Both the position numbers and the translations under genes were made by a program. The notes under the pieces were generated by a model. That model made no database searches. It was not told the origin of the DNA and saw only the letters and a program-made list of their open reading frames with translations. A DNA stretch of 64,000 nucleotides from Thermococcus sp. EP1 (GTDB lineage: Archaea; Methanobacteriota_B; Thermococci; Thermococcales; Thermococcaceae), in assembly GCF_001317345.1 (NCBI RefSeq), contig NZ_JXCG01000006.1:1-64000 (forward strand), written 5' to 3'. Below, piece after piece: positions 19,794 through 63,799 of this stretch (position 1 is the first letter of the stretch; each line of letters opens with the position of its first letter).

Positions 19794-21727
19794 AAAAGTT
19801 GATCCCTCTCTTATTCTTAATAATTCTACTCCCATATGCAACTGCACATTCCATTATAACAGGATGGATAGAAATACCTTCCAGAGTTGGGATAAAAGAA
19901 TATCCCTTAGAGATCAGGGATGTTTCACCAACTGAAGGCTCTTTGCTTATTGAACTCAATAATAGAGAATACATTTTGAAACCAGAAGTGTTACTGAACA
20001 CAAGTTTCTATTCGGTTTACATGAACTCAGTATTCTTAAAAGAAAATGGAGGTTATGCTACTTTTAACATTACTTTCCCATATCTCCTAGAAAATCAAAC
20101 AGTTCTAGCAGGGGACTATGCCCTTACACTTCTCTCAGTAGAAGAAAATAGAGCAAAAATTAGACTTAGGTATAACGATATTGAAAAAGAACTCATATAT
20201 AATGGAGGTAAGATAGAATTCAATGGATTGACAGTTCAACTTTCTATAATGCCCCTTCTTTTTGACGGGTATCTTTACAAAGGAGGTACCAAATACTTTC
20301 AAGATTGGCGGATAAAATTTGAAGATTATAATATCACTGAAATCAACGGAGAACTCAAAGAATTTGCAAAGATCTCTATTAACAACAAGGAGTACTGGAT
20401 AGAAGTGGGGGGCACGTTGAAAGCCGAAGGGATTATTGTTGAAACTAAGGAGTTAGTTGGCTCAATGTACCTGAAGACAATAATAAAAATAAATGGAGCT
20501 TACGCGTCCCTCTCTATTTCTCCGAGTTTATATAAAGAGCTGGAAGAAGGCAAAGATGCTCAAATAGGGCCTTATATTGTTAAACTCGAAAAAATATTCT
20601 CTGATGGCGTCTATATATCCATTAAAAACATGTGTGGAATGACCCTTAAGAGCACGTGGATACGTTTAGGGAAAATTGGAACATTAGTATCATACGGAGG
20701 TTTGCATATAGGGGTCACTGAAGTAAGTAACATGGCTACCAAAAAAGTAGCAAAAATAATAGGGTTTTTAGACGAACAAGAAATACCAAAAGTCGGAGAA
20801 TATGCATTTGCAAATGTTTCTTTCTTAACCCCCTCGAGGGCTCTTCAATTTGAACCATTCAACAGCACTATTGTAATAAAAAACACAGGAGACATTGATT
20901 TGAAGTACATTGAAATAATCCCAAAGCTTTCTGAGGAATTCAAAATTATAAGCTCATATCCACTATATATTCCAGAACTTAAAGTAGGAGAAAAGATAGA
21001 GTTTAACGTCCGAATAGAACCAAAGAAAGGAGGGTTTCTACAACTAGGAAACATTGAAATCCAGGCAAACGTCCCATACCAACTTTCATGTGATGGTTTT
21101 GCTAGAATCTCATTTTCTTCGGAGACCCGTTGGATAAATGTGGAAAATGCAACCCCAAAATATAAACTTGTTCTAAACAGCCAAAATGGCACAGTAGGTA
21201 GTAGCACTCAACTTAACCTTACTGTTGTAAACATGGGGAACACTAAAGGGCCATTTACAATAACAATAGCATTTCCAGAACAATCTGCCATAATCGGAGA
21301 AAACATAAACCTCCAAGGAAGATTTGTTTATTTTGAAGATTCATTAAACCCCAACGAGAACAAGACGTATTCCTTACTCTTCATCCCTATCCAAGGAGGA
21401 GAATTCGAGATACTAGCAGCACTGAAAGAAGGAGAGTACATTATCAAGAATTCCACGATTGCGAAGATCTTTACTATTCCAGCACCCGTAGAAAAAGAGA
21501 GCTTTGGGAACTCTACAGGCGAAACTCCTACTTCCACTGCACCAAAAATTATTAAAGAAAACATCACAACGACAGTAACTTACACAAAAGTCCTAAATTC
21601 CACAATAACAGTATTTCCAATAAAACAGAAACTTCTTTTTGGTGGAGCTGGATTTGCAGGAGGCATGGCCTTTATACTCCTCCTTGCTTGGATTGCTGCA
21701 AAACTTGAAGAAAGGAGTAGGAGGTAA
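19790..21727 (+). CDS. Large cell-surface protein encoded at the end of the archaellum operon
   Basis: A 645-residue protein with a signal peptide (KKLIPLLFLIILLPYATA), a long beta-rich exterior rich in Asn sequons (NIT, NTS, NLT, NST), an immunoglobulin-like/CARDB-type segment around residues 355-545 and a C-terminal membrane helix (GGAGFAGGMAFILLLAWIAA) with a basic tail. It is anchored outward. It begins with GTG four bases inside flaJ (GTGA overlap) after GGGGGTGGG, so it is translated with the archaellum genes. A role in S-layer attachment or as a motor bushing is inferred from position only; I recognise no catalytic domain. Confidence 0.7.
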   Translation: MKKLIPLLFLIILLPYATAHSIITGWIEIPSRVGIKEYPLEIRDVSPTEGSLLIELNNREYILKPEVLLNTSFYSVYMNSVFLKENGGYATFNITFPYLLENQTVLAGDYALTLLSVEENRAKIRLRYNDIEKELIYNGGKIEFNGLTVQLSIMPLLFDGYLYKGGTKYFQDWRIKFEDYNITEINGELKEFAKISINNKEYWIEVGGTLKAEGIIVETKELVGSMYLKTIIKINGAYASLSISPSLYKELEEGKDAQIGPYIVKLEKIFSDGVYISIKNMCGMTLKSTWIRLGKIGTLVSYGGLHIGVTEVSNMATKKVAKIIGFLDEQEIPKVGEYAFANVSFLTPSRALQFEPFNSTIVIKNTGDIDLKYIEIIPKLSEEFKIISSYPLYIPELKVGEKIEFNVRIEPKKGGFLQLGNIEIQANVPYQLSCDGFARISFSSETRWINVENATPKYKLVLNSQNGTVGSSTQLNLTVVNMGNTKGPFTITIAFPEQSAIIGENINLQGRFVYFEDSLNPNENKTYSLLFIPIQGGEFEILAALKEGEYIIKNSTIAKIFTIPAPVEKESFGNSTGETPTSTAPKIIKENITTTVTYTKVLNSTITVFPIKQKLLFGGAGFAGGMAFILLLAWIAAKLEERSRR

Positions 21728-21732
21728 GGGAT

Positions 21733-22371
21733 ATGAAAACAGACATTATTTGGGATTCACTAAAGTTTGGAGAGACAGTGCTTTTAGAGCATGATTCCCT
21801 GATGTTCCCATACAAAGAGCTTGCTGAGTTAATAGTGTGGAGTAAAAAAAGAGGCTATACACTGGTTATTGAAGATGTCCTCGATACTCTTTACACGTAC
21901 AAGAGTCAGATGGAACTTGCAGGTATAGACTCCAAAATCTTAGATAATATAAAAGTGCTTAAAACTGGAGGGAGATTAGAAGTAGGGAACGTCATGAGAC
22001 GGTTTCAGGTTAGTGATATACTATCATTAATAAAAGAATTTGAAATGAACTATGAACATATTCTCTCCCGAATAGAACACGCAACAGTCCCCATAGTTGG
22101 ACTCGACAAACTGTTTTTACTAGCTGAATCTAAGCTAGAGATCCTAGCCCTAGTAAATACACTTGCTAGATATGCTGGAAGTAGGAAAAGAACTGCCTTT
22201 TATTTTATTAACACTGCTGTGCTAATGAATAGCATCCCCTATGTGGTTCCACTATTAGAAGAATTAGCCAGTACTGTGATCAAAATCTATAAAGACGACG
22301 AGAAAACTTTCGAAATCATGAAATCTACAAACAATAGAGTATGGAAAGCACTCCAAATGATCAAACAATAA
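21733..22371 (+). CDS. DUF257 protein (degenerate KaiC-like), end of archaellum operon
   Basis: A 212-residue soluble protein of the DUF257 type, a family known mainly from Pyrococcus and Thermococcus. The strand-turn GETVLLEHDSLMFPYKELAELIVW sits where a RecA/KaiC protein has its P-loop, but no Walker A remains, and GYTLVIEDVLDTLYTY follows as the next strand. It lies five bases after the surface protein. A paralogue lies at 49092. Function unknown; a partner or decoy for FlaH-like KaiC proteins is possible. It overlaps the convergent permease by 11 bases. Confidence 0.75.
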   Translation: MKTDIIWDSLKFGETVLLEHDSLMFPYKELAELIVWSKKRGYTLVIEDVLDTLYTYKSQMELAGIDSKILDNIKVLKTGGRLEVGNVMRRFQVSDILSLIKEFEMNYEHILSRIEHATVPIVGLDKLFLLAESKLEILALVNTLARYAGSRKRTAFYFINTAVLMNSIPYVVPLLEELASTVIKIYKDDEKTFEIMKSTNNRVWKALQMIKQ

Positions 22372-29370: not shown

Positions 29371-31134
29371 ATGTCCTCCCTCGAGTCAAAAGTGGCTAAA
29401 ATATTGAAAAGATACCCATACGACATAACATTTGAAATAAAAGACAAAATCGTCTTTCTTTACGGGAATGTGGAAAAATACGAAGAATGGGTTGAAATAG
29501 GTCTGAGAATCGGAAAAATCAAAGGTGTTGATGGAGTAGTAAACAAAATAAAGTGGAGAGGTTTCCCAGAGGACAGATTTAAAGAAAAAGAAGAGAGAAG
29601 AAAAAAATTGTTTGAAAAGAACAGGGGGAAAGTAATCGGCGAATACGACGTCATCATAATTGGTGGTGGGATTATAGGCACCGCCATTGCTAGAGAGCTA
29701 TCTAGATATGATATTAAGATAGCACTTCTAGAAAAAGCGTCTGATATTGCCACTGGTGCATCTAAAGCAAACAACGGTATGATACATCCTGGAGTTGCAC
29801 CCCCTAGGAATACTCTAAAACGGAAGTTAAACATCAGAGGAAACGCTATGTATGATAAATGGGCAGAAGAATTGGGCTTTAAATTCAAGCGTGTTGGTAG
29901 TCTATGGCTAATAACACCAAGAACACTTGTTAGATACAAAAAATATCTACCTGGCCCTCTCTACAAGGTAGTCCTCAAATATATATTTCCATGGGTTGTT
30001 AAATTCAAAGGCATGAGAAACGGTGTGAAAGGGATTAAGATACTCCAAGACAAAGAAATTTTTAGACTAGAACCTTATGTGACTAAAGACACTCTAGCTG
30101 CAGTGTATGTTCCTTCCACAGGCATAGTAGACCCTTATGAAGTCACAATAGCACTGGCTGAAAATGCCAAAGAAAATGGTGTTGAAATCCACCTGAGAAC
30201 AGAAGTTGTTGGTTTCTTAAAGGAGAAAAATGCCATAAAAGGCGTAGTTACAAATAAAGGTGTTTTTTTGTGTAAATACGTTGTTAATGCTGCTGGAGTA
30301 TATGCTGACGAGATAGCAGAACTAGCTGGGGCAAGAGAATATACTATACATCCACGAAAAGGCGTTGAATTGATGTTTCACAAAGATACTGGAGAACTTA
30401 TCCATCATTGTCTATCGGAACTAGTTTTTCCGTCTCATCCCACGAGTAAGGGTGGTGGACTAAACCCCACAATACATGGAAACGTCATGTGGGGACCAAC
30501 TGCAGTTGAAGTTCCAGATAAAGAGGACACTTCAGTAAAAAGAGAGGAAATAGAGTTTGTTCTAAAGAGATATTCTACAATAATCCCCAACTTTCCCAGA
30601 GAGCAAATGATAAGATACTTTGCCGGTGTAAGAGCTCCCACATTTACAGAGGATTTTATAATTAGACCTGCAAAATGGGTGAAAAACTTCCTTCATGTTG
30701 CGGGAATACAATCTCCCGGCCTTGCATCAGCGCCAGCAATAGCAGAGTATGCAATAGAGAAACTCAAAGCAATGGGATTAGAATTGAAAGAGAATCCACG
30801 CTTTAACCCAAGGAGGAGCCCAATTCCAACAACTGCAGAAATGAGCATAGAGGAATTAGACAAACGAATAATGGAAAATCCAAAGTGGGGAAATATCGTC
30901 TGTACATGTGAGCTTGTCTCAGAAGCAGAGATTATTGAAGCTATCAACCGAGGAGCTTACACACTAGATGCCATTAAAAGACGGACACGAGCAGGAATGG
31001 GTACTTGTCAAGGGAGTTACTGTACACTAAAAATAGCTGAAATTCTCTCCAGAGAACTTGGAGTTCCACTAAATGACATACTCAAGGAAGAAGCCAAGCT
31101 CTTTAATGGACCAGTAAGAGGTGAGGCCCCTTGA
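29371..31134 (+). CDS. FAD-dependent glycerol-3-phosphate dehydrogenase (GlpA-like) with BON-like and BFD domains
   Basis: A 587-residue fusion. Residues about 1-66 resemble a BON domain (a small alpha-beta unit ending GVDGVVNKI). Then a DAO-type flavoprotein starts with YDVIIIGGGIIGTAIARELS and contains GASKANNGMIHPGV and HVAGIQSPGLASAPAIAEY. The C-terminus is a BFD-type 2Fe-2S domain with Cys511, Cys513, Cys546 and Cys551. It should oxidise sn-glycerol-3-phosphate to dihydroxyacetone phosphate and pass electrons through the Fe-S domain. Next to an FGGY kinase and an NAD/FAD oxidoreductase, it forms the core of glycerol catabolism. The N-terminal BON-like part is unusual for GlpA. Confidence 0.87.
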   Translation: MSSLESKVAKILKRYPYDITFEIKDKIVFLYGNVEKYEEWVEIGLRIGKIKGVDGVVNKIKWRGFPEDRFKEKEERRKKLFEKNRGKVIGEYDVIIIGGGIIGTAIARELSRYDIKIALLEKASDIATGASKANNGMIHPGVAPPRNTLKRKLNIRGNAMYDKWAEELGFKFKRVGSLWLITPRTLVRYKKYLPGPLYKVVLKYIFPWVVKFKGMRNGVKGIKILQDKEIFRLEPYVTKDTLAAVYVPSTGIVDPYEVTIALAENAKENGVEIHLRTEVVGFLKEKNAIKGVVTNKGVFLCKYVVNAAGVYADEIAELAGAREYTIHPRKGVELMFHKDTGELIHHCLSELVFPSHPTSKGGGLNPTIHGNVMWGPTAVEVPDKEDTSVKREEIEFVLKRYSTIIPNFPREQMIRYFAGVRAPTFTEDFIIRPAKWVKNFLHVAGIQSPGLASAPAIAEYAIEKLKAMGLELKENPRFNPRRSPIPTTAEMSIEELDKRIMENPKWGNIVCTCELVSEAEIIEAINRGAYTLDAIKRRTRAGMGTCQGSYCTLKIAEILSRELGVPLNDILKEEAKLFNGPVRGEAP

Positions 31135-36479: not shown

Positions 36480-36701
36480 ATGAGTGAAGAAAAACCTCTC
36501 CTACTTGACAAGACACTTGAGAAATGGAAGGGAAAAAGAGTTGCTCTTGCAGTTAGTGGAGACCATTCTTTCACTGGAACTCTAGAAGAGTTTGATGAAG
36601 AAGTCATTGTGCTTGAAAACGTCGCAGATGTTGTTGGAAACAGAGGAAAATCCTTAATAGTTAAGATAGATGATATCAACTGGATAATGCTTCTAGAGTG
36701 A
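36480..36701 (+). CDS. LSm-type (Sm-like) RNA-binding protein
   Basis: A 73-residue protein matching a single Sm fold: Sm1 region KRVALAVSGDHSFTGTLEEFDEEVIVLENV and Sm2-like end GKSLIVKIDDINWIMLLE. It is divergent from the canonical archaeal Sm1/Sm2 sequences, so RNA binding is likely but not proved. The long upstream extension of the frame overlaps the divergent gene and is not used. It ends four bases inside a possible start of mobB, so the two are an operon. Confidence 0.75.
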   Translation: MSEEKPLLLDKTLEKWKGKRVALAVSGDHSFTGTLEEFDEEVIVLENVADVVGNRGKSLIVKIDDINWIMLLE

Positions 36702-36706
36702 TTAAA

Positions 36707-37444
36707 ATGAAGGCCATAGCTTTTATAGGTTTTAAAAAGAGTGGGAAGACCTCCGCAGTAGAAAAAGTTGCAAATGAACTCAAGAACAGAGGATACAAAA
36801 TAGCAATAGCCAAGAGCATGCACACTAATTTTGATAACAAGAACACAGACACATGGAAATTTAAACAGGTAGCAGATTACGTCATCGTTAAAGCCCAGGA
36901 AACTGACGCTTTACTTTTTGAGGCTAAAGATATAAATGCATTATTTTCAATAATTCCCGAAGTGGATTTCCTTCTTCTTGAGGGATTTAAAACAGTCAAA
37001 CACATGCCAAAAATAATATGTGCAAAAAGTGAAGAAGAAGTAGATGCTCTCAATGATGGCCTAGCAATTGCAATTAGTGGAATCGTAGCAAATAACAAAA
37101 TACACCAAATAAAGGGATTACCTGTGATAAATGCTCTTGAAAACCCCGAGAAACTAGCTGATTTAATCGAAGAAAAAGCATTTATGTTGCCAAACATTGA
37201 TTGTAGAATGTGTGGTCTCACTTGCTATGAAATGGCAAAATTAATTATCAGAGGAGAGAAAAGCATCAAGGACTGTGTCGTCATAAGCTCAAAGCCTCAA
37301 GTAGTAGTGAAAGTTGATGGAAAAGAGCTCCCAATGAAAGATTGGGTTCAAGAGCTGGTAAAAAAGACCATCGAAGGTATGCTCTCAGCTATGAAAGGGT
37401 ATAAAGAAGGGCGAAAAATTGAGATTACAATAAATAACGAGTGA
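36707..37444 (+). CDS. mobB: MobB-like molybdopterin-guanine dinucleotide protein with a C-terminal Fe-S motif
   Basis: A 245-residue protein. Residues about 1-155 are the MobB P-loop domain (AFIGFKKSGKTSAVEKVANEL, and VDFLLLEGFK near the middle), which assists attachment of GMP to molybdopterin or tungstopterin; Thermococcales use tungsten cofactors. The C-terminus has Cys166, Cys169, Cys173 and Cys190 in CRMCGLTCYE...KDC, resembling a 4Fe-4S FeS-domain motif not found in bacterial MobB. A GTG three codons upstream of the ATG is less likely. Confidence 0.85.
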   Translation: MKAIAFIGFKKSGKTSAVEKVANELKNRGYKIAIAKSMHTNFDNKNTDTWKFKQVADYVIVKAQETDALLFEAKDINALFSIIPEVDFLLLEGFKTVKHMPKIICAKSEEEVDALNDGLAIAISGIVANNKIHQIKGLPVINALENPEKLADLIEEKAFMLPNIDCRMCGLTCYEMAKLIIRGEKSIKDCVVISSKPQVVVKVDGKELPMKDWVQELVKKTIEGMLSAMKGYKEGRKIEITINNE

Positions 37445-38162: not shown

Positions 38163-38873
38163 TTATTTTATATGCAAGCTCTTGTCATAACCCCATTCAT
38201 AAAGATATCCCATTCTTTTAAGCTTTCCAGCATGATATTCATAGATTAATGGCACCCCAGTAGGAATATTAAGTTTCAAAACCTCTTCCTTACTTAATCC
38301 CTCAATATGCATAACTATTGAGCGCAAACTGTTTCCGTGAGCTGAAACAAGGACATTTTTGCCCCTCTCAAGCTCCGGTATTATCTTTTCCTTAAAATAT
38401 GGAATGGTTCTCTTGGCAGTGTCTTTAAGACTTTCTCCACCGGGTGGAGCAATGTCATAGCTTCGCCTCCATAAAAGCACTTGTTCTTCCCCATAAATCT
38501 TTTTGGCCTTATCCTTGTTTAACCCTTGAAGTTGCCCATAATATCGCTCATTCAAATGCCATGACTTATATGTAGGCACATACCTTTCCCCATCTTCTCC
38601 ATAAATTAAACCCCATTCTTTCATCATTCCATTTTCATGCTCTATCTTTGGAATTCCAGAACAGTTTTTACTCATTACAAGCATTGCTGTTTGGATTGCA
38701 CGGACAAGTTCAGAAGTAAAAATCACATCAATTCGCCAATGCTTAAGAAGATCCCCAGCATTCAAGGCCTCTTCTACGCCTTTCTCACTTAGAGGAACAT
38801 CTACCCATCCAGTGAAGAGGTTTAACTTATTCCAAAGGCTCTCACCATGTCTTATTAGTATGAGGTTGCTCAT
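38163..38873 (-). CDS. Phosphoglycerate mutase, cofactor-dependent type (dPGM-like)
   Basis: A 236-residue histidine-phosphatase protein close to GpmA: LILIRHGESLWNKLNLFTGWVDVPLSEKG (His9), TSELVRAIQTA, LNERYYGQLQGLNKDKA, APPGGESLKDTAKR and SAHGNSLRSIVMHIEGLS. These are the full dPGM signatures, not those of general phosphatases. It would interconvert 3- and 2-phosphoglycerate. Archaea, including Thermococcales, normally use the unrelated cofactor-independent PGM, so this looks like a transferred bacterial-type gene. The ATG at 38873 follows GGTGGA. Confidence 0.88.
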   Translation of the reverse strand: MSNLILIRHGESLWNKLNLFTGWVDVPLSEKGVEEALNAGDLLKHWRIDVIFTSELVRAIQTAMLVMSKNCSGIPKIEHENGMMKEWGLIYGEDGERYVPTYKSWHLNERYYGQLQGLNKDKAKKIYGEEQVLLWRRSYDIAPPGGESLKDTAKRTIPYFKEKIIPELERGKNVLVSAHGNSLRSIVMHIEGLSKEEVLKLNIPTGVPLIYEYHAGKLKRMGYLYEWGYDKSLHIK

Positions 38874-41777: not shown

Positions 41778-42176
41778 TTAAACTTTTTCCCTAATAATCT
41801 CGTAAGAATAAGTTACCTCAGTACCACTTAATTTCAAATGAGCACCCACAGAACAGTATTTTGTTTGACTGAGGTCTATTGCTCTTTTAGCTTTTTCCTC
41901 GTTCACGTCTCCATAGATTTTATAATGGAGATGGACTTTTGTGTAGATTCTAGGGTACTCATCTCTCCTTTCACCAGTTATTTCGACTTCTAGACCTTCT
42001 ATGGGCTCCCGCATTTTTTGCAATATCATTACTACATCTATTGAGGTACATCCAGCAACACTAAGAAGGAGAGTCTTCATTGGAGAGATACCACTTTCTC
42101 CAAAAATTATTTTCCCACCCTCCTCTGTTAGAGCTTCGAACTTCTTATCCTCAATCCATTTGACGACTCCTTTCAT
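41778..42176 (-). CDS. OsmC-family peroxide-reductase-like protein
   Basis: A 132-residue OsmC/Ohr-fold protein with both redox Cys: Cys43 in [18 protein letters not shown] and Cys108 in [12 protein letters not shown]. Such proteins reduce organic hydroperoxides with dithiols. GGTGGTCC precedes the ATG. It is the first gene of a two-gene unit with the DUF1884 encapsulin, suggesting it may be housed in or work with it. Confidence 0.87.
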
Positions 42177-45805: not shown

Positions 45806-46517
45806 CCTTGGGAAATATTTACTCTAGTTAGTAGTATTTCAATGCGACATTTATTTCCTTTCTCTCTCAACTTTTACTTCAAATTATTACGATAAATTGT
45901 ATAGCCCCAATTAAAATTTGAGATAATATCTTAATAATATCACCTATGGTTAACGTCTATTAGAATTATATGATATATATTATACTATAATGTTGTTCAA
46001 TTCTAATCCTTACTATTGTAAGAAATTACAAAATATACATTTTTTACTATATTGAGTTGTTCTGAGCTCATGAAACAATTGATTGAACTTAACCCCCTGC
46101 TTATGCAGTCTCTCCAAGAATTTGCAAATGAGTATTGAATAAGCCGGCATCTCAAACAATTTTTATGATTACAAGCCAAGGTGGTAATAATAGTGGAATA
46201 TTAAGCACCTTTATTAGAGCCCACACAACAAATTACAAGGAGATGGAATATACGACGACTATAATCAAGATTTTGGATACCAATCTCATCCAAAAAGGTT
46301 TGCACCCAATATACAGTGAAGGCCTTATTCAAGGTATTTTAAGAAACCAAGAGAATTGCGCGCTATTTGAGAATATGGGCTAAGAAAATTGCTCCACCAA
46401 TAGCTTTCAATGAACATGTATATACACGTATTTTAGATATAAGGCACATTATATCTAAAATTCATGTACAGAAACGAACGTTAAAAACATCGAGAAAAAG
46501 AGGGAAAGAGAGAGTCA
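45806..46517. other. AT-rich gene-poor stretch with decayed frames
   Basis: No gene is supported in about 700 bases. Short rightward frames (46070-46138, 46135-46383, 46367-46549) follow one another with stop codons between them and without ribosome binding sites, which suggests a decayed gene that I cannot identify. ATTAGAATT near 45959 and AATTCTAAT near 45998 form a loose inverted repeat. A perfect 13-bp hairpin is at 46430-46461. Confidence 0.4.
46430..46461. repeat. Perfect 13-bp inverted repeat, 6-base loop
   Basis: ATTTTAGATATAA, a GGCACA spacer and TTATATCTAAAAT form a perfect hairpin-capable inverted repeat, with weaker symmetry continuing outward (TATACACGT left, TCATGTACA right). 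It is in no obvious gene. It could be a regulator or recombinase site, or the end of an old mobile element. Confidence 0.6.
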
Positions 46518-46847: not shown

Positions 46848-47027
46848 ATTTTATCACCTCATATTATAACGCATTTAAAGTTTAAAAGCATATCTAATAT
46901 GTCATACCCCTTCCAGAAGGTGGGATAGTATTCTCATCTATGAGAAGTTTCTTTGAGGCTTTTTCATACATGGGCCCAAGTGTATATTTTACTCTGTTGC
47001 TGGCTTAAGTGATAAAATAATAACATA

Positions 47028-47047
47028 ATTAAATAATTATTGTAATT
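47028..47047 (+). repeat. Partition-site-like repeat, copy 1 (half site)
   Basis: ATTAAATAAT followed by TATTGT and a truncated right arm (AATT). The preceding TAAAATAATAA at 47013-47023 also recurs before other copies. Confidence 0.6.
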
Positions 47048-47200
47048 CCCGGTACATTGATCGACTCTCCCTTGTCCTAGATTTTCAAACGAGGATCAAT
47101 AGAACTGTTACTATATCTCCACTAGGAGTCATATCTGTTAATAGCAGTTTAATTCTCTCTCATCCCTTGAATGTCTCTCCCGTTTTAAAATAATAAAGTA

Positions 47201-47226
47201 ATTAAATAATTATTGTATTATTTAAT
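47201..47226 (+). repeat. Partition-site-like repeat, copy 2 (full palindrome)
   Basis: ATTAAATAAT, spacer TATTGT, then ATTATTTAAT: a perfect 10-bp inverted repeat with a 6-base asymmetric spacer. It lies in non-coding DNA 500 bases before parA. Confidence 0.75.
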
Positions 47227-47692
47227 AATGTGATACGTTTTTTCCAGGAGATGCGGCCCTATCAGAAAAGGCCAATACATGCTTGTATAAATTACCTACT
47301 ATCAATGATAATAAAAATTTGATATTTTTTACTATGGTTCATTTTATTAGTGATAATATATTCATTTGTTCTTAATAATAAATCAATAAAGTATAATAAT
47401 CATGAAAAAATTTTATTTTGTAATTAAGAATTATTTGTAGTAATTGATTTATAACTATATTTTTAAGTAAAAAATTAAGTCAAAGTTTGAGAGTTGAAAG
47501 AGCACTCCCTATTTTATAATTATAAAACAATGAGATAGATATCTAAAAATAATAACTGAAACTCCATTCTTGGCCCTTTAAATCAGTATCAAAAACATTA
47601 ATTATCCCTAACAAGCAAGTGGAAAGTCCGGCTACATCTTTGTATCTCTTAGGATAAAACCTCACACTGAAATCCCAATATTCAGCAAAATT

Positions 47693-47718
47693 ATTAAATA
47701 ATTATTGCATTATTTAAT
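47693..47718 (+). repeat. Partition-site-like repeat, copy 3 (at the parA start)
   Basis: ATTAAATAAT, spacer TATTGC, ATTATTTAAT, one spacer base different from copy 2. It ends 12 bases before the parA ATG and covers the expected promoter or leader, so binding there would also regulate the operon. Confidence 0.78.
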
Positions 47719-47730
47719 TATGGTGATCAA

Positions 47731-48513
47731 ATGGCGATTATAATCAGTATTGCTAATCAAAAGGGTGGTGTTGGAAAGACTACAATAAGTCTCAACTTGG
47801 CCCATGCACTGGCTAAAAAGGGTTATGATACCCTAATAATCGATACTGATCCCCAATTCAACCTTACGTTTGCTCTAATCGGCATGAATATAATCAATTA
47901 CAGCGACAACAACATAGGCACCCTTCTAATAGAAAACTCCGTGAAAAAGGCTCAAATTGAGGACGCCATAGTCCACATACATGAGAATCTATCTCTCATA
48001 CCCTCCCACCTAAAAGTTTCTGCGATTGAAAGATTGCTCATGACAGCATACATGCGTGAACAGAGACTCAAAAGAGTTTTAGAGAAAATAGAGGATGAAT
48101 ATGACTTTATAATCATCGATAACCCACCAAGTCTAGGAATATTCTTAATAAACTCTCTTGGAGCCTCAGATTATGTCTTGATCCCAACTGAGTTAGGATA
48201 CTTTAGTGTCATGGGTGTGCAGTTAACACTTGATGTCATCAGGGAGATAAAGTCCACTGAACTCAACCCAGACTTGGAAATCATGGGTATTGTTGCAAAC
48301 AAATTTACACGTCAAAGCAAAGTCCCCCAGGTGAGGTTAGATCAGCTAAAAGAGGCCTATCCTGACTTACCGATAGTTGCCATTTTGCCGAGGGCAGTTG
48401 CAGTTGAGAAGTCTCAAGAAGAGGGTAAGCCAGTTTTTGAATTTGAGCCGAACAATAGAGTATCCAAGGCTTTCTTAAAACTTGCGGAGAGTGTGATCAA
48501 AAATGTCAGGTAA
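47731..48513 (+). CDS. ParA/SegA-type partition ATPase
   Basis: A 260-residue Walker-type ATPase without an N-terminal helix-turn-helix. The deviant Walker A is KGGVGKTT (residues 11-18); the A' motif TLIIDTDPQFN and Walker B DFIIIDNPPSLG follow. It is like chromosomal Soj/SegA proteins, which form ATP-dependent patches on DNA and move partition complexes. GGTGATCA precedes the ATG. The next gene overlaps by 11 bases and encodes an RHH protein, the SegB position. Five AT-rich repeats flank the pair. No plasmid replication or integrase gene is seen nearby. Confidence 0.92.
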   Translation: MAIIISIANQKGGVGKTTISLNLAHALAKKGYDTLIIDTDPQFNLTFALIGMNIINYSDNNIGTLLIENSVKKAQIEDAIVHIHENLSLIPSHLKVSAIERLLMTAYMREQRLKRVLEKIEDEYDFIIIDNPPSLGIFLINSLGASDYVLIPTELGYFSVMGVQLTLDVIREIKSTELNPDLEIMGIVANKFTRQSKVPQVRLDQLKEAYPDLPIVAILPRAVAVEKSQEEGKPVFEFEPNNRVSKAFLKLAESVIKNVR

Positions 48514-48841
48514 AAGTAGAAAGAAAACTTTGCCCAAGCTTCCCTCCATGAGTAGCGAGGTCGTGAGAACCCTAACGGAAGAACCAAAAAACAATAGGAC
48601 AAATGCGAAGAAAGATACCGAGAAGAAGATGAAAACCCTATACATAAGCGTAGACGCGGATAAGTTGCTAAGGCTACTCTATGCTGAAGGTGAAGGCAAA
48701 CAAAATGAAATCTTTGAAAAGGCTATAAAACTGTACTGGGCCCTCAGAGAGGTTTTACCAGAGGAAGAATTTAGAAGATTGGTAAAGCTGGCCGAAAAGA
48801 AGGAAATCGAAAAGATAAAGCGACGACTCGAGTTTAAGTGA
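48503..48841 (+). CDS. SegB-like ribbon-helix-helix partition partner
   Basis: A 112-residue protein. The first about 40 residues are basic and low in structure (GKSRKKTLPKLPS...NNRTNAKKDTEKK), as needed to stimulate a ParA ATPase. Residues about 42-80 fit a ribbon-helix-helix fold (MKTLYISVDADKLLRLLYAE, QNEIFEKAIKLYWAL). Disordered N-terminus plus RHH is the layout of Sulfolobus SegB. It overlaps parA by 11 bases. Its stop codon touches repeat copy 4. It is the likely binder of the five repeats. Confidence 0.8.
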   Translation: MSGKSRKKTLPKLPSMSSEVVRTLTEEPKNNRTNAKKDTEKKMKTLYISVDADKLLRLLYAEGEGKQNEIFEKAIKLYWALREVLPEEEFRRLVKLAEKKEIEKIKRRLEFK

Positions 48842-48866
48842 TTAAATAATACAATAATTATTTTAT
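48841..48866 (-). repeat. Partition-site-like repeat, copy 4 (inverted orientation)
   Basis: On the plus strand ATTAAATAAT, spacer ACAATA, ATTATTTTAT: the reverse complement of copies 2 and 3, with one arm mismatch. It begins on the last base of the segB-like stop codon. Confidence 0.7.
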
Positions 48867-48944
48867 TATTTTATTGTTGTTTTATATTAGGGAATACTTT
48901 TTCTCTCACAATTGATAAAGTTCAAATAAAATTGAGTTAAAGAA

Positions 48945-48980
48945 TAAAATAATAAAATAATAAAATAATTATTGAAATTA
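48945..48980 (+). repeat. Partition-site-like repeat, copy 5 (degenerate)
   Basis: Repeated TAAAATAA units run into ATAAAATAAT, TATTGA, AATTA, matching the left arm and spacer of the other copies and the upstream TAAAATAATAA block but lacking a good right arm. Confidence 0.5.
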
Positions 48981-49091: not shown

Positions 49092-49727
49092 TTAAAACTC
49101 ATAGCTCTTAACACTAAAACCAAGACCATTGTTTATTCTCCCCAGCTCAACCACAGTAGTTGCAATCTCTTCAAGGAGCGGTAGAGCCCATGGGATGGCC
49201 TCTTCAAGTGCGTTAACATTCACAAAATAAAATGCCGTTCTCTGAAAGCTCGAGGTAAATGAGAGTATCATTGATAAAGTAGCGAAAACTTCCCTTGGTG
49301 ATTCACTTAATATTAAAAGTTTTTCAAATCCCAAAACAGGGTTAATTATTCGTTTTTCACTATCTAGGTGTGGGAGTGCAACTTCCAAGTACTCTTTTAC
49401 TCTTATATGAGGTTCCTTAAGGGCCAAGTGTCCGATAACATCACCTACGTCCAATGTTCCTCCAATTTTTACTACCTTAATGTCATTCAGTACCTCACTA
49501 TTTAAGCCTTTCAAGTCCATTTTGATCTTGTAAATAGGCAGGGTGTCAAGAGTATCATCTATTATCACCTGGTAGTCATTTTCTTTGGCCCAGATGATTA
49601 ACTCGTACAAAATAACAGCAGAATTAATAATTGGAGAATATTCAATTAACACCGTTTCTCCTTCGCTTACTTCCTCAAAAAGTTGGGGGAAGTTCTTTAT
49701 AAACCCCTTAAGAATATTGGCATTCAT
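49092..49727 (-). CDS. DUF257 protein (degenerate KaiC-like)
   Basis: A 211-residue paralogue of the protein at 21733: both show GE-TVL-E in the position of a lost P-loop, then a strand with DD/EDVLDTLxxYK, then LNDIKVxKxGGxLxVG, and GFEKLLILSES / GLDKLFLLAES. No Walker A remains. The ATG at 49727 follows TAGGTGATG. It borders the partition island and is alone on its strand. Function unknown. Confidence 0.75.
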   Translation of the reverse strand: MNANILKGFIKNFPQLFEEVSEGETVLIEYSPIINSAVILYELIIWAKENDYQVIIDDTLDTLPIYKIKMDLKGLNSEVLNDIKVVKIGGTLDVGDVIGHLALKEPHIRVKEYLEVALPHLDSEKRIINPVLGFEKLLILSESPREVFATLSMILSFTSSFQRTAFYFVNVNALEEAIPWALPLLEEIATTVVELGRINNGLGFSVKSYEF

Positions 49728-49852
49728 AAACATCACCTAGTTTTCGATATAGCATTTGTTTTATAAAAGGATTTTCTTTTAGAATATTTTTAAGCCCATA
49801 TAGCAAAAATCCTCGGAATAATACTTATTGATTAGTTAACGATGATTTTCTT

Positions 49853-63139: not shown

Positions 63140-63799
63140 TCAGTTCCCTATAGGTACCACAAATATCTCTCCAAATGGTTCTTCCTGAATGAGCTCTATT
63201 TTCCCCATATTTGCCAAAAACAAGAGATACAGAAAAGTCCTTGCCACTATTTTGGGGCTAGGATCAAATATAAGCTCCCAAAAAGTTATTTTGTCCTTAG
63301 TATTATTGTAGAGCTCTTTCACTATTTCATACAGCTTATTAACATGCTTTTCAATGTCCACACGAAAATCATCGACAACGAATATTTCTTCTTCAATTTG
63401 TACTTTCTTTTTCTTTTTGGGTTTCCTTTTCTCAGTCTCTTCAAGGGCATCCATTAAAGCCTCTATTAAATCATCCAGAGTATAATACCTTTCCGCTCTC
63501 CTAAGAGGTGGAATGTATGGATCAACATCTACCCTTATCCTTTCCTCTTCCTTCTGTTCCTCTTCTTCTTCATCCTTGGCATAGAGCAGGGCCTCAGTTT
63601 TCATTCTAAGGAGAACAGAGGCCGCTAGAATGGCCCTTGCTGAGATTCTCAAATCTAAGTCTCGCATTTCTCTTATACGTTCAATGTATTTCTCGGTAAT
63701 ATCCACTATATCAATGTTCCACGGGTCAACTTTACCCATAGTGACAAGTTGCAAGAGTATATCAATCGGAGTTATTTCTTCTTCTCTTCTATATTCCAT
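63140..63799 (-). CDS. scpA: Segregation and condensation protein ScpA
   Basis: A 219-residue kleisin: N-terminal TPIDILLQLVTMGKVDPWNIDI and YIERIREMRDLDLRISARAILAASVLLRMKTEALL, an acidic/basic linker and a C-terminal winged helix (ITFWELIFDPSPKIVARTFLYLLFLANMGKIELIQEEPFGEI). It closes the SMC ring. The ATG at 63799 follows GGTGAAATAAG, and that site directly follows the smc stop codon, so smc and scpA form an operon. Confidence 0.94.
   Translation of the reverse strand: MEYRREEEITPIDILLQLVTMGKVDPWNIDIVDITEKYIERIREMRDLDLRISARAILAASVLLRMKTEALLYAKDEEEEEQKEEERIRVDVDPYIPPLRRAERYYTLDDLIEALMDALEETEKRKPKKKKKVQIEEEIFVVDDFRVDIEKHVNKLYEIVKELYNNTKDKITFWELIFDPSPKIVARTFLYLLFLANMGKIELIQEEPFGEIFVVPIGN

Follow-up and report, generated by a model that had tools for sequence, protein, structure and literature searches.

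Which DNA does a ParA-type partition cassette serve when it lies in a Thermococcus chromosome, and where does it come from? Chromosome segregation in archaea outside the Sulfolobales is a largely open field. The locus analysed here lies in a window of 64,000 nucleotides at the start of contig C6 (bases 1-64000) of G000, a draft genome of 1.82 Mb. Its gene content and its position in a family of six genera indicate the Thermococcaceae. An earlier note on this DNA had described a SegAB-like pair of genes for a ParA ATPase and a ribbon-helix-helix (RHH) protein surrounded by repeats, either as the chromosome's own segregation locus or as the remnant of an integrated plasmid.

The gene pair

47731..48513, + strand: parA, HTH-less ParA/Soj-type ATPase, 260 aa (Pfam AAA_31, E 3e-53)
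48503..48841, + strand: rhh, putative ribbon-helix-helix centromere-binding protein, ParB-equivalent, 112 aa, basic; overlaps parA by 11 bp

The product of parA is a Walker ATPase without an N-terminal HTH, as the earlier note had read it. Its deviant Walker motif KGGVGKTT lies close to the N-terminal start, and its best structure matches are ParA/Soj structures. The overlapping gene for a small basic protein and the AT-rich, gene-poor stretch around the pair were also described correctly. The RHH fold that had been claimed for this partner is likely; it is suggested by a single, sub-threshold match of the partner family profile in the PDB, the omega repressor 1irq (E 0.44), next to a Pfam search of the 112-aa protein that gave no match and a poor AlphaFold model from two-sequence input (pLDDT 57.6). 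Purifying selection is strong on both genes (overall dN/dS range 0.02-0.05), with values of 0.048 for parA and 0.044 for rhh, the latter limited by a dS close to saturation.

The repeats are arrays of 8-bp octads

Five clusters of repeats had been described, three upstream of the pair and two downstream, with one of the upstream clusters next to the parA start, and their coordinates bear this out. The repeat unit had been taken to be a 26-bp spaced palindrome. This palindrome is exact in two of the five clusters and has 1-3 mismatches in the others; with two exact copies only, we reject it as the unit. What all clusters share is an 8-bp octad with the consensus 5'-TNMAATAA-3'. Each cluster is an unspaced array in which direct octads are followed by inverted octads around a head-to-head centre (slash). 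The arrays have 5-7 octads, some of the end octads being degenerate, with at least four to five in every array.

47005..47044, + strand: octad array 1, TTAAGTGA TAAAATAA TAACATAA TTAAATAA / TTATTGTA; kept in G076, G084 and G079
47186..47225, + strand: octad array 2, TAAAATAA TAAAGTAA TTAAATAA / TTATTGTA TTATTTAA, then a weaker octad TAATGTGA
47686..47725, + strand: octad array 3, predicted autoregulatory operator, ends 5 bp 5' of the parA ATG
48834..48889, + strand: octad array 4, begins at the rhh stop codon; kept in all four relatives examined
48937..48976, + strand: octad array 5, TTAAAGAA TAAAATAA TAAAATAA TAAAATAA / TTATTGAA; present in G076, G079 and G082, degraded in G084

Five arrays of tandem short units, the predicted centromere, adjoin the genes, one of them at the promoter. 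Array 2 of G079 contains one octad more than that of the window genome, visible as an 8-bp indel, and the octads of array 3 are identical in G076, G084 and G079. What had been read as an inverted fourth copy is a near-symmetric array. In a comparison of G000 with G079, identity is 85% in arrays 1-3 and 57% in the remaining upstream non-coding bases. The octads are variable at positions 2-3 and keep AATAA, and the head-to-head centres are shared between species.

The octad matrix was built from 38 octads, picked by eye from the window genome and G079, and chained at fixed steps. In the window, this chaining yields arrays at steps 8 and 16 only, and none at steps 9-15. The five arrays score 29-43, compared to 14.6 for the next best place in the window and 18.3 for the highest shuffle maximum, scores that are partly circular because the matrix was trained on the same arrays. 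This circularity does not affect the core counts, the conservation between species or the plasmid scan. The two-octad 16-bp core TNMAATAATTATTKNA is found 5 times in the window versus 0.02 expected. It is present in all five clusters and a 15-mer in three, and neither occurs elsewhere in the draft genome. Whole genomes were scanned with these 15-bp and 16-bp patterns rather than with the matrix. All genome-wide matches of the 16-bp core lie at the cassette locus in G000 (5), G076 (5), G084 (4) and G082 (3), as do four of the five in G079. Elsewhere we observe 0-2 matches per genome, but 4 in G011, and the control with the reversed 16-bp pattern gives 0-1. The earlier note had called for a search of its 26-bp motif across the genome and its relatives; with the 16-bp octad core, the matches are locus-specific in four of the five carriers.

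The Pyrococcus genome G011 contains a 14-octad array and smaller ones (L181 7564-7761 and 8765-8876; G011:C3, ~393.5-394.9 kb). They adjoin a transposase-like gene fragment and a 151-aa ORF, with no close parA-rhh there. This 14-octad array far from a close parA-rhh counts against the explanation proposed below.

The cassette lies beside a predicted dif site

One feature that is absent from the earlier note adjoins the cassette.

46432..46459, + strand: predicted chromosomal dif, XerA target, 11-6-11, TTTAGATATAAGGCACATTATATCTAAA

Counted by eye, it agrees with P. abyssi dif at 24 of 28 positions; the P. abyssi oligonucleotide of the same strand is TTTAGATATAAGGCCGATTATATCCAAT (PMC2958812). 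The predicted dif is a single copy in the genome, 28 bp long with 11-bp inverted arms and a 6-bp spacer, and lies in the terminus region. Genomes of the genus that carry the cassette, and others that do not, have a dif-like site at the corresponding position. The distance from dif is 546 bp (~0.55 kb) to the start of array 1 and 1.27 kb to parA. By our own arithmetic, cdc6, the marker of oriC, is ~122 degrees away from dif in G076 and ~145 degrees in G079, and with cdc6 at 120-145 degrees an origin-proximal location of the cassette is rejected. The angles in G076 and G079 are close to the published range of 120-142 degrees (PMC2958812).

The non-coding DNA upstream of parA contains a further conserved element.

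47465..47536, no strand assigned: AT-rich non-coding conserved element between arrays 2 and 3, AGTAAAAAATYRAGTCAAAGTTTGAGAG; also in genomes without parA-rhh

In one genome without the cassette (L138), 75% identity to this element is seen over 73 bp. Judged from such alignments, the element predates the cassette or is independent of it. An Rfam search of the locus including the element gave no match, and an ncRNA is not supported. A single clean insertion does not explain the layout, because cassette DNA flanks the element on both sides. No second dif, direct repeats or integrase were found at the locus, in line with the earlier statement that no integrase or Rep gene is near, and integration at dif leaving a scar is rejected for want of a second dif and of direct repeats. 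The same neighbours enclose ~0.46 kb in genomes without the cassette and 1.8 kb of other DNA in G080, where ~1.3 kb of unrelated coding-looking DNA lies near dif (L141 ~7.6-9.0 kb; G080:C1) and an equivalent of the 47465-47536 element is retained. The region near dif seems to take up foreign DNA. The cassette may have been gained in the carriers or lost from the other genomes of the genus.

Two DUF257 genes are present in the window, at 21733-22371 and, adjoining the cassette, at 49092-49736. The latter is present in G076 and G084; in G079 we did not find it at the corresponding site. The gene of the condensin kleisin ScpA lies at 63140-63799, 14 kb from the cassette.

Distribution and other ParA systems of the family

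Five of 13 genomes of the genus (G000, G076, G079, G082 and G084) carry the cassette, at the same syntenic place beside dif; the short G082 contig does not reach dif. Because only five of 13 carry it, the proposal that it is the chromosome's own locus for segregation is unlikely to hold in general.

The window genome encodes a second ParA at G000:C3:287024 (L038 1495-2549), whose partner has an ALGRGLEALI box at its start and is matched to Sulfolobus SegB at E 1.2e-9. A search at E 1e-35 detects SegA-like ParAs of this kind in 12 of the 13 genomes of the genus and in hardly any other genus of the family. Of the SegAB-like character that had been ascribed to the cassette, the overlapping order of the two genes stands (11 bp). 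Membership in SegAB is rejected: neither the window partner nor its family profile matches SegB, the genome has its own SegAB at C3, and TCTAGA-S-TCTAGA sites are at chance in the window (20 versus 20.1 expected) and absent between 44.7 and 51.2 kb. In a SegAB study of 2025, no SegB-like sites were detected in the neighbourhood of segAB of Thermococcus sibiricus (PMC12284271).

A related parA-rhh pair occurs once in nearly every other Thermococcaceae genome, directly 3' of ftsZ in the 16 genomes with context checked (L049-L064). The matrix scan found no octad arrays at these ftsZ-linked loci, and in the genus of the window we find no parA-rhh pair next to ftsZ. Upstream of ftsZ the same loci contain a small RHH gene (e.g. 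L049 4539-6913, L055 3453-5889), which we take to resemble CdrS; a division-segregation operon of CdrS-like RHH, ftsZ and parA-rhh is possible. The two distributions are near-reciprocal. The genus has SegAB and no ftsZ-linked pair; in the other genera that pair is present and a SegA-like ParA hardly ever occurs, a pattern that looks like the replacement of a chromosomal partition system.

Octad arrays on a methanogen plasmid

The closest plasmid ParA to that of the window (58.5%, ~59%) is encoded on the 58-kb plasmid NC_001732 of the methanogen Methanocaldococcus jannaschii. In the ParA tree the two group together (support 87/81), and the ftsZ-linked ParAs form a separate clade (97/97); the grouping with the plasmid ParA has moderate support only, because the plasmid branch is long and the outgroups are distant. 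The plasmid genes (MJ_RS09090-09095) overlap by 11 bp as in the window, the partners are 36% identical, and the family alignment shows a C-terminal LPEEEF..VKLAE pattern common to both. With the Thermococcus octad matrix, we detect ten arrays of 4-12 octads on NC_001732. All ten are intergenic, on a plasmid with a coding share of about three quarters, and several are far from parA.

NC_001732 (L148/L149), 20223-20345, 30338-30504, 36536-36835, 38394-38679 and 41804-41883: octad arrays, candidate centromere clusters

No arrays appear in 40 block-wise shuffles of the plasmid, nor with the same matrix on two other Methanocaldococcus plasmids. This co-occurrence is the strongest evidence from sequence that the octads belong with the parA-partner pair. 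In M. jannaschii the octads may also lie outside this plasmid, since the scan covered plasmids. A functional study of the plasmid pair was not found in the papers searched, and a limited search of open-licence papers gave no octad ParA system shared between the terminus of an archaeal chromosome and a plasmid from a different order. A viral or phage source of the cassette is rejected, as the viral contigs searched contain no close ParA and no four-octad pattern; no match of the partner was found in phages.

Proposed function and alternatives

We conclude that the cassette is probably a functional plasmid-type ParABS cassette, captured in the terminus beside dif and acting on the terminus/dif region. 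ParA would be the nucleoid-binding ATPase and the partner the centromere-binding protein, working, by analogy, like omega of pSM19035 with dimers side by side on the unspaced octads. Arrays coated by the partner would stimulate ParA, and array-bearing DNA would in this way be moved or held on the nucleoid. With array 3 on the parA promoter the operon would be self-regulated, which is likely because this array ends 5 bp before the parA ATG. The prediction that the repeats are the DNA sites of the partner, as centromere and operator, is strengthened because they are locus-specific, conserved above the spacers and recurring beside the closest ParA/partner on a plasmid. The source would most likely be an extrachromosomal relative of the M. 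jannaschii plasmid. The present target would be the terminus/dif region, and action there is the most direct reading because the cassette sits beside dif. The genes, the octad arrays and their restriction to the locus, the shared motif on the plasmid, the purifying selection and the place beside dif are observed; we infer binding, ATPase stimulation, autoregulation, movement and the terminus role. As for the remnant of an integrated plasmid proposed earlier, the ParA tree and the octads speak for the plasmid origin, but neither decay (dN/dS 0.02-0.05) nor an integration scar was found.

The location next to dif prompts one to ask what takes care of the terminus in archaea, organisms without FtsK (PMC2958812). 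A dedicated terminus partition, in which ParA/RHH and octad centromeres beside dif position or separate the sister termini, are coupled to XerA dimer resolution without FtsK and operate alongside SegAB, is a tentative answer that we put forward as possible.

The main rival to terminus action is a cassette for plasmid stability that became stranded in the chromosome and has no role in its segregation; it would be kept because it stabilises the region or, as a competing centromere, acts against related plasmids that enter the cell (incompatibility). Plasmid-type ParA and octads, the presence in only five of 13 genomes of the genus and a complete SegAB elsewhere in the genome are in agreement with it. 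We nevertheless regard it as unlikely, given the same syntenic place beside dif and the strong purifying selection in the carriers, and given that the searches made found no octad-bearing plasmid of the genus.

It is improbable that the cassette is the ftsZ-linked parA-rhh of the family, moved to a new place while the copy behind ftsZ disappeared in this genus. The tree places the window ParA with the plasmid ParA and outside the ftsZ-linked clade, the ftsZ-linked loci are without octads, and the LPEEEF..VKLAE C-terminus is shared with the plasmid partner. Tree and absent octads therefore disfavour relocation, even though gene order and overlap are the same, the ParA proteins are 47-59% identical and the ftsZ locus of the genus is without the pair.

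Array 3 abuts the parA start in four aligned genomes, as would be expected if the octads were purely operators, with the partner as autorepressor of parA-rhh and arrays that are not centromeres. Four of the five arrays, however, are off the parA promoter, arrays 4 and 5 lying 3' of the operon, and of the ten intergenic plasmid arrays several are remote from parA, which makes this reading very doubtful. Replication-origin iterons or AT-rich slippage repeats are hardly credible, for although AT-rich 8-bp tandem units slip easily, these octads differ from one another at positions 2-3 with AATAA retained, their orientation switches, their head-to-head centres are conserved between species, cdc6 is 120-145 degrees away and no Rep gene is seen.

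Comparison with known partition systems

Besides SegAB, the Thermococcus group has in this cassette another ParA system of a different type. Its predicted centromere code recurs on a methanogen plasmid and is precise enough for a direct test. The pair of NC_001732 resembles it in ParA (59%), partner (36%), the 11-bp overlap and the octads, but is extrachromosomal, with arrays that are more numerous and spread across the replicon. The ftsZ-linked parA-rhh has the same gene order, with identities of 47-59% for ParA and ~30-40% for the partner, but lies directly behind ftsZ, lacks octads and belongs to a separate ParA clade. SegAB of the Sulfolobales likewise combines ParA with an overlapping small DNA-binding gene and sites upstream of segA. 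In contrast to the cassette, its partner has no detectable relation to that of the window, and its 13-bp sites, TCTAGA-S-TCTAGA palindromes, are dispersed around the chromosome (PMC12284271).

A ParA that works with an RHH-type protein on tandem short repeats is of a kind known in bacteria. The MetJ repressor is an RHH protein on tandem 8-bp boxes, but its role is metabolic, it has no ParA and its box sequence is different. The delta/omega-parS system of pSM19035 (type Ib ParABS) shares with the cassette an HTH-less ParA, a small partner, here putatively of RHH type, and several sites of contiguous short units, direct and inverted, one of them on the parA promoter. Each parS site there consists of 7-10 unspaced 7-bp repeats, and ParA is fully activated only with at least four of them in a row (PMC9499535). 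The units differ, 8-bp AT-rich octads here and 7-bp WATCACW heptads there. Such heptads occur 4 times in the window versus 8 expected and form no array, so that the cassette is not omega/parS proper. It further differs from the pSM19035 system in being archaeal and chromosomal, in its place beside dif with overlapping genes, and in a partner that matches omega below threshold only (E 0.44).
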